Source: Streptomyces sp. NRRL S-646 | Lineage (GTDB): Bacteria > Actinomycetota > Actinomycetes > Streptomycetales > Streptomycetaceae | DNA: 64,000 nucleotides | Direction of reading: 5' to 3' | NCBI RefSeq assembly: GCF_000720765.1 | Contig: NZ_JODC01000005.1 | Coordinates: forward strand, 372,001-436,000 | Part shown: positions 22,466-58,915 of the stretch, one piece after another | Position numbering within the stretch: the first letter of the stretch is position 1 | How the letters are laid out: every line of letters starts with the position of its first letter | Program-made: the position numbers and the translations under genes | Notes under the pieces: model-generated | Databases searched by the model: none | Told to the model about the DNA's origin: nothing | What the model saw: only the letters and a program-made list of their open reading frames with translations

Positions 22466-22501
22466 GCGGTCCCGTAATTCGGACACGAGTTGCGGGACCG
22501 C
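22466..22501 (+). terminator. trpD terminator hairpin
   Basis: Perfect 9-bp arms GCGGTCCCG (22466-22474) and CGGGACCGC (22493-22501) with an 18-nt loop, 10 bases after the trpD stop. The right arm overlaps the -35 of the next promoter. Confidence 0.65.
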
Positions 22502-22527: not shown

Positions 22528-22680
22528 GGTCATGAGTGACAGTCATGAGGCCCCGGCCGACTGTCCGGCAACCCTCCGTCCGTGGCGGGGTGCCCCGGGT
22601 GAAGACCAGGCCGTAGGCAGCGAGGTCTACGGCAAGCGCGGGCCCCTCGAACAACCAGGGGTCCTGGTCGTCGAGGAGCC
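22528..22680 (+). promoter_or_regulatory. SAM-IV riboswitch with SD-sequestering expression platform
   Basis: The aptamer core matches the SAM-IV class of actinobacteria: P1 GGTC (22528-22531) pairing with GACC (22604-22607), the GATC-less ATGAGTGACAG left side, GCCCCGGC, GCCGGCAACCCTCC, and GGGGTGCCCCGGGTGAAGACC. Next comes a CCGTAG/CTACGG hairpin (22611-22632). A long hairpin follows (22641-22650 with 22671-22680, one mismatch, and an inner ACCAGG/CCTGGT stem) whose 3' side contains GAGGAG, the ribosome site of a six-codon ORF starting at 22685. SAM binding would therefore be expected to close translation of that ORF. It precedes a SufS-like cysteine desulfurase gene. The class is recognised from memory of its consensus. 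Confidence 0.88.
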
Positions 22681-22684
22681 TTCC

Positions 22685-22705
22685 GTGAGCAAGCGAATGC
22701 GATAG
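22685..22705 (+). CDS. Six-codon mini-ORF controlled by the SAM-IV riboswitch
   Basis: GTG AGC AAG CGA ATG CGA TAG encodes MSKRMR. It has the best ribosome site of the whole transcript, GAGGAG at 22673-22678, 6 bases before the start. That site lies in the 3' arm of the riboswitch expression-platform hairpin, so this ORF and not the desulfurase 100 bases further on is the direct translational target. The peptide holds methionine, lysine and arginine codons. Likely roles are coupling ribosome traffic to the downstream gene or protecting the message; the peptide itself may have no function. Confidence 0.6.
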   Translation: MSKRMR

Positions 22706-22806
22706 GGCCGCAGAGCCCCGCCTCCGCATCCCCTTTCACCTTCACACCCACGCTTGAGTCATGCGCTCGCGGGGTGAACTCAGCCTGCACCCACGGGAGT
22801 TCCGTC

Positions 22807-24168
22807 ATGTCTGTCTCTACCGCTGCCGCCGTCACCTCCATTTGCGCCCCGCTGCCCGTTCTGGGACGGGATGTCACCGTCCCGCTCGTCACGGGCGGCG
22901 AAGTCACCTACGCCGCGCTCGACTATGCGGCCAGCGCCCCCGCCCTGCAGCGCGTCTGGGACGACGTGGCCGCCTACGCGCCCTACTACGGCAGCGTCCA
23001 CCGCGGCGCCGGCTACCTCTCCCAGCTGTCGACCGACCTCTTCGAGAACGCCCGCCGGACCGTTGCCGAGTTCCTGGACTGCCGGGCCGACGACCAGCTG
23101 ATCTTCACCCGCTCCACGACGGACTCCCTCAACCTGCTGGCGCAGGCGCTCCCGGCCGGCTGCCAGGTCTTCGTGTTCGAGACCGAGCACCACGCCAGCC
23201 TGCTGCCCTGGAGGGATGCCAGGGTCACCTGCCTCGACGCCCCGCGCACCCCGCAGCAGGCCGTCGAGACCCTGGAGCGCGCCCTCGCCGACCGCGACCC
23301 GTACGGTCCCGCCCTGGTCTGCGTCACCGGCGCCTCGAACGTCACCGGCGAGCTGTGGCCGGTGCGCGAGCTCGCCGCTGCCGCCCATGCGCACGGCGCC
23401 CGTATCGTCCTGGACGCCGCCCAGCTCGCCCCGCACCACCCGGTCTCCGTGCAGGACCTCGACGTCGACTGGGTCGCCTTCTCCGGCCACAAGCTGTACG
23501 CGCCCTTCGGCTCCGGCGTGCTGGCCGGCCGCGCCGACTGGCTGCAGGCCGCCGACCCCTACCTCGCGGGCGGCGGCGCCAGCCGCAAGGTCACCCGGCG
23601 CGCGGACGGCGGCGTGGACGTGGAGTGGCACGACAGCGCCGCCCGCCACGAGGCCGGCTCCCCGAACGTGATCGGCGCCTACTCCATCGCCTCCGCCTGC
23701 AAGGCCCTCACCGAGGCCGGCTTCGACACCCTGGTCGCCCGCGAGCAGCACCTGATCGACACCGTCCGGGCGGGCCTCGCCGAGGTGCCCGACGTGCGGA
23801 TCCTCTCCCTCTTCGGCGACGACGCCCCCCGCGTCGGCGTGATCTCCTTCGTCGTCGAGGGCTGGAACAGCTCGCACTTCGCCGCCGCGCTCTCCGCCGA
23901 GTACGGCATCGGCGTCCGCGACGGCCTCTTCTGCGCGCACCCGCTGGTCAGGACCCTGCTCGGCAGCGACCCCCAGACCCAGGGCGAGTGCGGCGCCCCC
24001 GAGGCCGCCCCCGGCGAGAAGTCCCTCAACGCGATCCGCGTCAGCTTCGGCGCCGGCACCCCCGACGAACACGTCGAGCGCTTCGTCACCGCCGTGAAGG
24101 AACTGGTGGCCGACGGCGCGAAGTGGCAGTACCGCACAGAGGACGGCCGCTGCGTCCCGGCAGTCTGA
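22807..24168 (+). CDS. SufS-like cysteine desulfurase / class V aminotransferase under SAM-IV control
   Basis: 453 residues of PLP class V fold. The PLP lysine is K229 in FSGHKLYAPFG, and the SufS-type active-site cysteine is C376 in RDGLFCAHPL; TEHHASLLPW and SPNVIGAYS are further family blocks. The ATG at 22807 has GGGAG 7 bases upstream; a GTG at 22774 lacks a site. It is not in a suf operon and is controlled by S-adenosylmethionine. This suggests it supplies sulfur for methionine/SAM-related biosynthesis, or that it acts on a sulfur amino acid as a lyase, rather than general Fe-S assembly. Substrate unknown. Confidence 0.85.
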   Translation: MSVSTAAAVTSICAPLPVLGRDVTVPLVTGGEVTYAALDYAASAPALQRVWDDVAAYAPYYGSVHRGAGYLSQLSTDLFENARRTVAEFLDCRADDQLIFTRSTTDSLNLLAQALPAGCQVFVFETEHHASLLPWRDARVTCLDAPRTPQQAVETLERALADRDPYGPALVCVTGASNVTGELWPVRELAAAAHAHGARIVLDAAQLAPHHPVSVQDLDVDWVAFSGHKLYAPFGSGVLAGRADWLQAADPYLAGGGASRKVTRRADGGVDVEWHDSAARHEAGSPNVIGAYSIASACKALTEAGFDTLVAREQHLIDTVRAGLAEVPDVRILSLFGDDAPRVGVISFVVEGWNSSHFAAALSAEYGIGVRDGLFCAHPLVRTLLGSDPQTQGECGAPEAAPGEKSLNAIRVSFGAGTPDEHVERFVTAVKELVADGAKWQYRTEDGRCVPAV

Positions 24169-57602: not shown

Positions 57603-58753
57603 GCGGGCTGCTCCAGGAGCGCGAAACGCTTCGGGGTGAACGGGCGGGCCTCGTCCGGGAGTTCACCGGTGGCCAGGGCGTGCGCCATGACGTCGCCGGT
57701 GACCGGGGTGAGCAGCACGCCGTTGCGGTAGTGGCCGGTGGCCAGCAGCAGACCGGGCAGTTCCGTCGGGCCGAGCAGCGGCGCGTTGTCCGGGGAGCCG
57801 GGGCGCAGACCGGCCCGTGTCTCCGTCAGCGGCAGCTCGGTGATCCCGGGGACGAGCTCGTGCGCGTCGCGCAGCAGCTCGTACACACCGCCCGCGGTGA
57901 CCGTCGTGTCCCAGCCCAGCTCCTCGCTGGTCGCGCCGATCACCAGCTCGCCGCTCTCGCGCGGCACCAGGTAGACATGGCTGCCGCGCACGACGGCGCG
58001 CACCGTGCGGCTCAGGAACGGCGCGTACCGCTTCGGCACGGTCAGCCGCAGCACCTGCCCCTTCACGGGGCGTACGGGCGGCAGCACCTCGTCCGGGACG
58101 CCCGGCAGCCGTCCGCTGAGGCTGCCGGCGGCCAGGACCAGCTGACCCGCGCCCAGCTCGGCGCCGTCGGTCGTGGTGACGCCGCAGGCCCGGTCCCGTA
58201 CGACATGCAACCGCTCGGCCCACGTCCGGTGGAACACGACTCCGGCCCGCTCGCACGCGGCCACCAGCGCGCGTGCCAGCCGCCGCGGGTCGATCTGGTG
58301 GTCGCCGTCGACCCTCAGCCCCCCGCGCACACCCGGTGCGAGCATCGGCTCCAGACGCCGGCAGTCGCGCCCCGAGAGCCACTCCGACTCCAGGCCCGAC
58401 TCCCGCTGCAGGGCGTGCAGTTCGCGCAGATGGGCACGGTCGTCGGAGTCCAGGGCGACGGCGAGCGTGCCGCACTGGCGGTAGCCGAGGTCGTGGCCGG
58501 TGAGGTCGGTGAGCTCGGCCGCGAAGTCCGGGTAGCGGCGGGCCGAGGCCAGGTTGAGGCCGAGCAGGGTCTGCTCGCCGTAGTGCAGCTCCGTGACCGC
58601 GGCCAGCATCCCGGCGGCCACCTGGGCGGCCCCGCCGCCCGGTTCGGGGTCCACGACGGCCGTGGCGAAGCCGCGCTGCGCAGCCCGCCAGGCCGTGACC
58701 AGGCCGATGATTCCGCCCCCGATGACGAGGACGTCTGACGTACGTGACGACAT
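57599..58753 (-). CDS. thiO: Glycine oxidase ThiO
   Basis: 384 residues, FAD enzyme that turns glycine into dehydroglycine for the thiazole ring. FAD motif IGGGIIGLVTAWRAAQRG, central substrate region HQIDPRRLA, C-terminal GHYRNGVLLTPVTG. ATG 58753 with GGGAGGGG upstream; that site adjoins the last helix of the TPP riboswitch, so translation is the likely control point. First gene of the thiOSG operon. Confidence 0.94.
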   Translation of the reverse strand: MSSRTSDVLVIGGGIIGLVTAWRAAQRGFATAVVDPEPGGGAAQVAAGMLAAVTELHYGEQTLLGLNLASARRYPDFAAELTDLTGHDLGYRQCGTLAVALDSDDRAHLRELHALQRESGLESEWLSGRDCRRLEPMLAPGVRGGLRVDGDHQIDPRRLARALVAACERAGVVFHRTWAERLHVVRDRACGVTTTDGAELGAGQLVLAAGSLSGRLPGVPDEVLPPVRPVKGQVLRLTVPKRYAPFLSRTVRAVVRGSHVYLVPRESGELVIGATSEELGWDTTVTAGGVYELLRDAHELVPGITELPLTETRAGLRPGSPDNAPLLGPTELPGLLLATGHYRNGVLLTPVTGDVMAHALATGELPDEARPFTPKRFALLEQPA

Positions 58754-58771
58754 GGGCGTCCAGCCCCTCCC

Positions 58772-58856
58772 TTCGCCGGCATGACCCGGATCAGGTTCGT
58801 ACGGTCGGAGGCCGCCAGCCTCCCTCTCAGCCCGGTGCGTCCGGGCTCCCGCGAGT
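58772..58856 (-). promoter_or_regulatory. TPP riboswitch (THI element) of thiOSG
   Basis: On the minus strand: TCGCGGGAGCCCGG, GGGCTGAGAGGGAGGC, GCCTCCGACCGTACGAACC, TGATCCGGGTCATGCCGGCG, then the ribosome site GAAGGGAGGGG. The CTGAGAG and CCTGATCCGGGTCA boxes are diagnostic. It ends ~18 bases before the thiO start, so it acts on translation. Confidence 0.95.
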
Positions 58857-58915
58857 GCTTGTACGTTGGCCACCCTAGCCCGACACTCCTCGCCTCTGTA
58901 AGGGAGCCTTCCGTC

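Follow-up and report, generated by a model that had tools for sequence, protein, structure and literature searches.

A SAM-IV riboswitch in Streptomyces appears to regulate a conserved six-codon ORF ahead of a cysteine-desulfurase-like gene

The SAM-IV riboswitch that precedes a cysteine-desulfurase-like gene in Streptomyces is followed by a minimal upstream open reading frame (uORF), six codons long, gated, present genus-wide and built around an invariant CGA-AUG core. We consider it fairly likely that the riboswitch regulates the ribosome-binding site of this dedicated mini-ORF and that the mini-ORF in turn relays a positive effect onto the enzyme gene, probably by way of Rho-linked early termination. 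If true, a metabolite riboswitch would act on its gene solely through a dedicated minimal ORF, genus-wide in a group of antibiotic producers. As far as sequences can tell, the firm part of this picture consists of the anatomy of the leader, its conservation, a signature of translation, the direct arrangement found elsewhere and three losses that place control onto the enzyme.

Results

Anatomy of the leader

The window, that is the whole 64,000-nucleotide stretch of Streptomyces sp. NRRL S-646 that was analysed (contig NZ_JODC01000005.1, positions 372,001 to 436,000), carries a SAM-IV aptamer on the plus strand at 22528–22644, which matched the covariance model RF00634 of Rfam with 113 bits (E 4.5e-20) against a gathering score of 38. 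Scanning the whole genome with the same type of model returned no second SAM-IV match. The class was reportedly defined by Weinberg in 2008; that the leader RNA binds SAM, and that the aptamer thus serves as a SAM sensor, we infer from the direct versions described below and from SAM-IV in general.

Behind the aptamer, the Shine–Dalgarno (SD) sequence GAGGAG (22673–22678, plus strand) is separated by a six-base spacer from the start codon of the mini-ORF (22685–22705, plus strand; GTG-AGC-AAG-CGA-ATG-CGA-TAG, encoding MSKRMR), which is supported by conservation and by per-base change counts on a tree. Its frame stays open farther upstream, where a TTG stands at 22490, and the conserved SD belongs to the GTG. 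The ribosome site that appears to be under SAM-IV control is that of the mini-ORF and not that of the enzyme, as the original prediction had claimed: GAGGAG serves the GTG at 22685.

The enzyme gene (22807–24168, plus strand) begins with an ATG 101 nt 3′ of the mini-ORF stop and has its own SD, GGGAG, at 22795–22799 on the same strand. Its product of 453 amino acids is a class-V aminotransferase-fold, cysteine-desulfurase-like enzyme (Pfam PF00266, 254.6 bits). The best NCBIfam family was SufS with 252.2 bits, below the cut-off of 475.1, so the exact function is not fixed and 'desulfurase' is a label only. Of the predicted desulfurase some 100 bases on with its own GGGAG, the position and the SD were confirmed, and the assignment of the enzyme fell short of the SufS cut-off. 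Between the stop of the preceding gene (22456) and the aptamer there is also an inverted repeat, GCGGTCCCG...CGGGACCGC, at 22466–22501, probably the terminator of that gene.

Conservation of the mini-ORF in the genus

Of the 199 genomes examined from the genus, 194 contained SAM-IV. A 24-base mini-ORF pattern with up to three mismatches had a single match in the 10.7 Mb genome of NRRL S-646 (control matches, 0), which speaks against a chance occurrence, and occurred in 186 of the 199 genomes, with positions checked among the matches listed; a few genomes contained an extra match, probably by chance. Eight genomes with SAM-IV lacked the pattern. Inspected singly, five of them proved to have diverged mini-ORFs (L116, L118, L120, L121 and L122) and three had none; the main-locus exceptions without a mini-ORF are L115, L117 and L119.

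Leaders were fetched from 293 loci, and 290 could be oriented by the aptamer profile; L082, L083 and L293 gave no match and were dropped. The genus set comprised 197 loci after exclusion of L088, a duplicate of the window's own locus. The pattern NTG-N6-CGA-ATG-N3-TAG, which requires CGA, ATG and TAG, stood behind the aptamer in 176 of the 197, with 12–84 nt between the aptamer and the start codon. The remaining 21 are 18 SAM-IV copies at other genes and the three main-locus exceptions. In 176 of 179 fetched enzyme-type loci the mini-ORF is kept with its start codon and SD, a length of exactly six codons, the CGA-ATG pair and the TAG, and the prediction thus passed the comparison across Streptomyces on which it had depended. 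Among the main-locus leaders we found no altered versions; those that failed the pattern were without any mini-ORF. An enzyme homologue lay downstream at each of the three exceptions and at 174 of the 176 mini-ORF loci; at L122 and L226, the two loci where none was found, the available sequence stops 67 and 392 nt past the aptamer.

The exact IUPAC form of the pattern occurred in at least 119 stretches of a collection of named genomes. Among the 119 matches listed, 117 lay within 110 nt 3′ of a SAM-IV aptamer; the other two begin so close to the edge of the retrieved sequence (58 and 72 bases) that there is no room for a whole aptamer. The name Streptomyces was carried by 75 of 80 listed entries, the other five being Actinacidiphila, Streptantibioticus, two 'Actinobacteria bacterium' and one labelled Microtetraspora glauca.

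Evidence for translation

The minimum number of changes at each base was counted on a FastTree phylogeny of enzyme fragments, which contained 171 tips with the mini-ORF, 2 without it and 6 outgroup sequences. For the three bases of each codon the counts were 4, 0 and 0 in the start codon, 3, 17 and 12 in codon 2, 15, 7 and 1 in codon 3, zero throughout codons 4 and 5, 6, 7 and 52 in codon 6 and again zero throughout the TAG. The SD region gave 11–33 changes per base, and the spacer past the hairpin that follows the mini-ORF mostly 32–61. Start codons (n=176) were GTG in 167 cases, ATG in 7 and TTG in 2, with only G, A or T as first base, and a GGGAG- or GAGGAG-type SD was located 5–9 nt 5′ of the start in all 176. 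Codon 6 encodes Arg in 165 of 176 mini-ORFs, using all four CGN codons (CGA in 92 of the 165). A free wobble base in codon 6, together with exchange among valid start codons only, is the signature of a translated frame.

Codon 4 behaves differently. CGA is rare in the enzyme fragments (8 of 1,376 Arg codons, 0.6%), but codon 4 never departs from it, which indicates that it is kept as a codon or as the sequence CGAATG and not merely as Arg. The invariance of CGAATG at all six bases, a third-codon position included, would also be expected if the conserved stretch were an RNA or DNA site and no translated frame. Such a site would not account for 52 changes in the third base of codon 6 next to 6 and 7 at its neighbours, nor for starts that are exchanged only for valid ones behind an SD that never leaves its 5–9 nt range, and we give this explanation hardly any credence.

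The internal Met codon is invariant at position 5; a second Met occurs in at most 11 and a Cys codon in 4 of the 176 mini-ORFs. None of the 176 thus contains the series of codons for the amino acid under control that marks a classical leader-peptide attenuator.

Two candidate stems, mutually exclusive, around the SD

The candidate ON stem, stem I (22640–22664, plus strand), pairs GGGCCCC (22640–22646) with GGGGTCC (22658–22664). In the minimum-energy fold, the candidate OFF stem, stem II (22645–22676, plus strand), pairs CCTCGA (22645–22650) with TCGAGG (22671–22676) over the SD, in agreement with the earlier statement that GAGGAG is hidden in the expression-platform hairpin. The mean probability that the SD of this leader is unpaired was 0.17 in the predicted fold. 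Stems I and II share bases and are mutually exclusive.

Stem I (GGNNCCC with its complement, 7 bp, GU allowed) was found in 161 of 162 genus leaders that are not short, compared with a mean of 4.8 (maximum 12) of 162 when the downstream sequence was shuffled. Its arms alternate as pairs, GGACCCC/GGGGTCC (95) versus GGATCCC/GGGATCC (22). The SD:anti-SD 5-mer of stem II was present in 115 of 162 leaders, a count taken without shuffle control. We presume that the two stems exchange with SAM. Contrary to the prediction of this model, folding with the pseudoknot strand withheld produced no overall drop in SD accessibility: counting changes above 0.02, access was lower in 7 and higher in 3 leaders of the short class (n=12), lower in 29 and higher in 44 of the mid class (n=111), and lower in 20 and higher in 16 of the long class (n=51). 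Fourteen of the 176 leaders have just 12–17 nt from aptamer to start codon, insufficient for both stems, so the gate there must operate otherwise; the aptamer itself may close the SD in these cases.

A hairpin at the stop codon and a C-rich stretch

The G of the TAG is also the first base of a short hairpin (22705–22718, plus strand) formed by GGGC (22705–22708) and GCCC (22715–22718). Of 170 distinct tails, 159 can form a 4-bp stem at the stop, where shuffled tails gave a mean of 90 (standard deviation 5.9, maximum 106). Change counts were 0–6 and 12–24 in the arms and 42–63 in the loop. The 24 nt after the AUG had a mean fold z of −1.5 relative to shuffles, with 111 of 121 below zero, whereas later windows ranged from −0.44 to +0.07. 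Paired variants exist, for example GGCG/CGCC and GAGC/GCTC; in such C-rich tails, chance partners are expected for several variant arms. The fifth pair covaries weakly (61 of 144 versus 48.9), and in the sequence of NRRL S-646 an alternative fold is slightly better than the stop-codon hairpin. The hairpin is followed by a C-rich, G-poor stretch (22719–22757, plus strand), by its base composition a candidate Rho loading region; pooled over the 176 loci, positions +12 to +42 from the stop contained 50% C and 14% G.

The stop-codon hairpin and its pyrimidine tail might themselves be the terminator, which a ribosome on the mini-ORF would block with no need for Rho. The model for this is the E. coli ampC attenuator, where a ribosome on a minute ORF keeps the terminator from forming, as in the relay proposed here; unlike the SAM-IV leader, it senses growth rate and has no aptamer. 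Because the hairpin begins inside the stop codon, a ribosome there must melt it. At least three U within 8 nt of the hairpin were counted in 59 of the 150 loci with GGGC/GCCC (26 of the 176 loci fall outside this set), but the other 91 have 0–2 U, and the stem is short; over the 34 nt from the stop, 134 of 154 distinct segments fold with energies between −6 and −12 kcal/mol. With a short stem and few U, this is not the strong GC hairpin with a U run of a classical attenuator, and we judge intrinsic termination to be unlikely.

A direct arrangement in other families and in three lineages of the genus

Outside the genus, 92 loci were oriented and 56 of them had an enzyme homologue downstream. 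The enzyme start could be placed by script in 52 of the 56, and in 50 of these it had its own SD and lay 15–98 nt from the aptamer; at L079 and L263 the scripted start is wrong, and an SD-led GTG is visible closer to the aptamer. No complete SD-led ORF of at least three codons was found ahead of the enzyme in 46 of the 50. Loci with such an ORF are L062, L101, L111 and L273, none of which has Arg-Met. Outside the genus the aptamer for the most part gates the enzyme with no intermediate ORF, and the enzyme start there occupies the place of the genus mini-ORF (15–98 versus 12–84 nt from the aptamer). At L062 the gated uORF has 13 codons and its TGA overlaps the enzyme ATG as ATGA, from its sequence likely a coupling version of the relay.

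In the three exceptions within the genus the gated SD belongs to the enzyme. At L115 it now stands ahead of GTG-TCT-GTC, which looks like a fusion of the mini-ORF start to codon 2 of the enzyme; at L119 GTG-AGC reads on into the enzyme; at L117 the enzyme ATG stands in the place of the mini-ORF. On the tree they are three separate losses, each adjoining a mini-ORF carrier, with support for the placements of 0.81, 0.465 (L117, low) and 0.857. As the gate is set straight on the enzyme in both the direct and the fused versions, a ribosome that translates the mini-ORF is expected to promote expression of the enzyme. The direct versions and the three lineages that have lost the relay are also natural controls.

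A model for the proposed relay

The SD of the enzyme is distant and outside the gate, so control should run through transcription or the fate of the mRNA. At low SAM, stem I would form and free the SD, and a ribosome would translate GTG-...-CGA-ATG-NNN-TAG. While this ribosome occupied CGA-AUG or the TAG, its leading edge would lie over the stop-codon hairpin and the first part of the C-rich stretch, and with this RNA shielded the RNA polymerase would run on into the enzyme gene, to be translated from its own SD. With SAM bound, the SD would be hidden, no ribosome would load, and the bare hairpin and C-rich RNA would lead to an early end of transcription, most likely by Rho. The direction of this response is suggested by the direct versions and by SAM-IV in general, while the termination step and a pause on CGA-AUG are our postulates. 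A point against the proposal is that a six-codon ORF can protect no more than a few tens of bases, which falls short of a usual Rho loading site.

In S. clavuligerus, the accessible text of a transcription study describes a premature unit with SAM-IV ahead of an aminotransferase class V gene, its drop into the gene being among the most extreme of that study (PMC8269248); we assume that this leader contains the mini-ORF. One Rho of S. lividans is described there as responding poorly to bicyclomycin. Term-seq-mapped ends may, as the same source allows, also arise by processing, and early 3′ ends could then be decay products of a message that is shielded from RNases by a ribosome near its 5′ end or by the hairpin. 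Such protection would account for a positive relay at any distance, but leaves the invariant CGA-AUG and the C-rich stretch unexplained, and we find it improbable.

Alternatively, ribosomes leaving the mini-ORF might restart on the enzyme. The uORF of M. tuberculosis ppe2 offers a published case of uORF-dependent expression by termination–reinitiation, as described in the part of the paper available (PMC11260477), and the ATGA overlap at L062 could serve the same purpose. The Streptomyces leaders are built differently. From mini-ORF stop to enzyme start there are 53–292 nt (median 106, 171 loci), neither the overlap nor the closeness used in reinitiation, and all three frames are used alike (56/57/58), which makes tight translational coupling unlikely; the enzyme moreover has its own SD. 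We therefore regard restarting as distinctly improbable. Of the routes named in the original prediction, coupling, mRNA protection and Rho access, termination fits best, and a relay remains the best reading of the locus.

Given usual ribosome footprints, a ribosome with P-site CGA and A-site AUG would have its front edge near the base of the hairpin. This geometry may favour a pause, with sensing of Met-tRNA as a further possibility, in line with the second input that the original prediction had seen in the Met codon. A tentative extension of the relay, which we hold to be rather doubtful, is that the aptamer admits the ribosome to a programmed pause whose length reads a second signal. The pause would arise from a P-site CGA, a rare codon, next to an A-site AUG, together with a hairpin starting five bases on, within the stop codon; the second signal would be charged Met-tRNA or the speed of CGA decoding, so that SAM and methionine supply would be combined on the mini-ORF. 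If true, the CGA-ATG pair would be a general actinobacterial sulfur sensor module. In any case, the invariant CGA-AUG and the stop-codon hairpin offer a compact, testable ribosome-pause element.

Relation to known systems

Riboswitch-gated uORFs that work with Rho or reinitiation are already known from M. tuberculosis, according to the available parts of two papers (PMC12810186, PMC11260477), and the ligand-gated relay that had been called an unusual design is thus rare but has precedents. In the first, the Mbox controls the uORF rv1805A before pe20, with Rho-dependent termination. It shares with the Streptomyces leader an actinobacterial host, a ligand-controlled SD on a conserved uORF instead of the operon's main gene, an anti-SD with an anti-anti-SD, and premature termination, the last two being candidate or presumed elements in Streptomyces. 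Unlike SAM-IV, the Mbox senses magnesium, and its uORF encodes a small protein that has a homologue elsewhere (PMC12810186, accessible part), whereas the mini-ORF has six codons, an invariant core and a hairpin at its stop codon. In the second, a B12 riboswitch before ppe2 acts with the uORF uPPE2, again a relay between aptamer and gene and described in the available text as indispensable (PMC11260477). There the coupling uses an AUGA stop–start overlap, in contrast to an enzyme start that lies well beyond the mini-ORF in any frame.

Cys-rich leader peptides of actinobacteria are likewise short ORFs before sulfur genes for which Rho has been suggested (NCBIfam NF042934; PMC1262725, as far as the accessible text goes), but they contain runs of Cys codons where the mini-ORF has one invariant Met codon. 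The SAM-IV loci of other actinobacterial families have the same aptamer family, enzyme family and SD distance, and differ in the absence of the mini-ORF. The literature we searched, in which few subscription journals were covered, yielded no paper that, judged by its listing, deals with a SAM-IV-gated uORF, and no mention of the peptide 'MSKRMR'. For S. lividans, SAM-IV has been reported before SLIV_26975, and in the available part of that study a table of eight leader peptides apparently has none at SLIV_26975 (PMC8079986), which suggests that SAM-IV leaders get annotated without their uORFs.

Other uORFs behind SAM-IV aptamers

A scripted check of the 92 oriented non-genus loci found five Arg-Met uORFs, all with CGA-ATG: L072 (MNHHRMRR), L089 (MCIRRMCCR), L092 (MSCQRMPRR), L098 (MTCRMPF) and L104 (MTCRMRR). 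Reading by eye added a sixth, L259 (MCRCRMTGVAGA). Five families other than that of the genus thus have SAM-IV-gated uORFs with the CGA-ATG pair, and in three of them a putative MetZ-like gene was seen downstream. The longest ORF behind L089, L092, L098 and L104 carries the N-terminal motif SFETxQxHAGQ or its beginning, which we take to be MetZ-like. The hairpin after the uORF core was more stable than in shuffles at L072 (z −2.1) and L098 (z −1.7, with the script anchored at an earlier CGAATG on the L098 start codon), and not clearly lower in energy at L089, L092, L104 and L259.

We also considered the same CGA-ATG mini-ORF at other Met genes and rejected it for the Rfam Streptomyces-metH and -metK leaders of the NRRL S-646 genome. 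No CGA-ATG uORF was seen near either; CGAATG occurs near metH only within apparent coding sequence and near metK on the opposite strand.

At L094 (MARSPMRCCCQ), L105 (MRASLHPLTRCCCR), L097 and L070, SAM-IV is followed by short uORFs with Cys codons before MetZ-like genes, possibly for combined sensing of SAM and cysteine. Family f3, which includes the Cys-rich uORF loci L094 and L105, is at a guess mycobacterial. Within the genus, 16 of the 18 other SAM-IV copies (L046–L058, L060, L061 and L124) have a different, conserved and longer leader peptide downstream, which contains HIDL or VDLLR and, close to its end, a C; its length is 38–54 codons in the 10 translated by script. Two of these peptides were tested; one scored 32.6 bits with the NCBIfam family 'putative leader peptide' (cut-off 27), and the other was unmatched. 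These copies present a pairing of a SAM riboswitch with a Cys-type leader peptide. Elsewhere in the window, a TPP riboswitch is located at 58751–58862 on the minus strand (63.3 bits).
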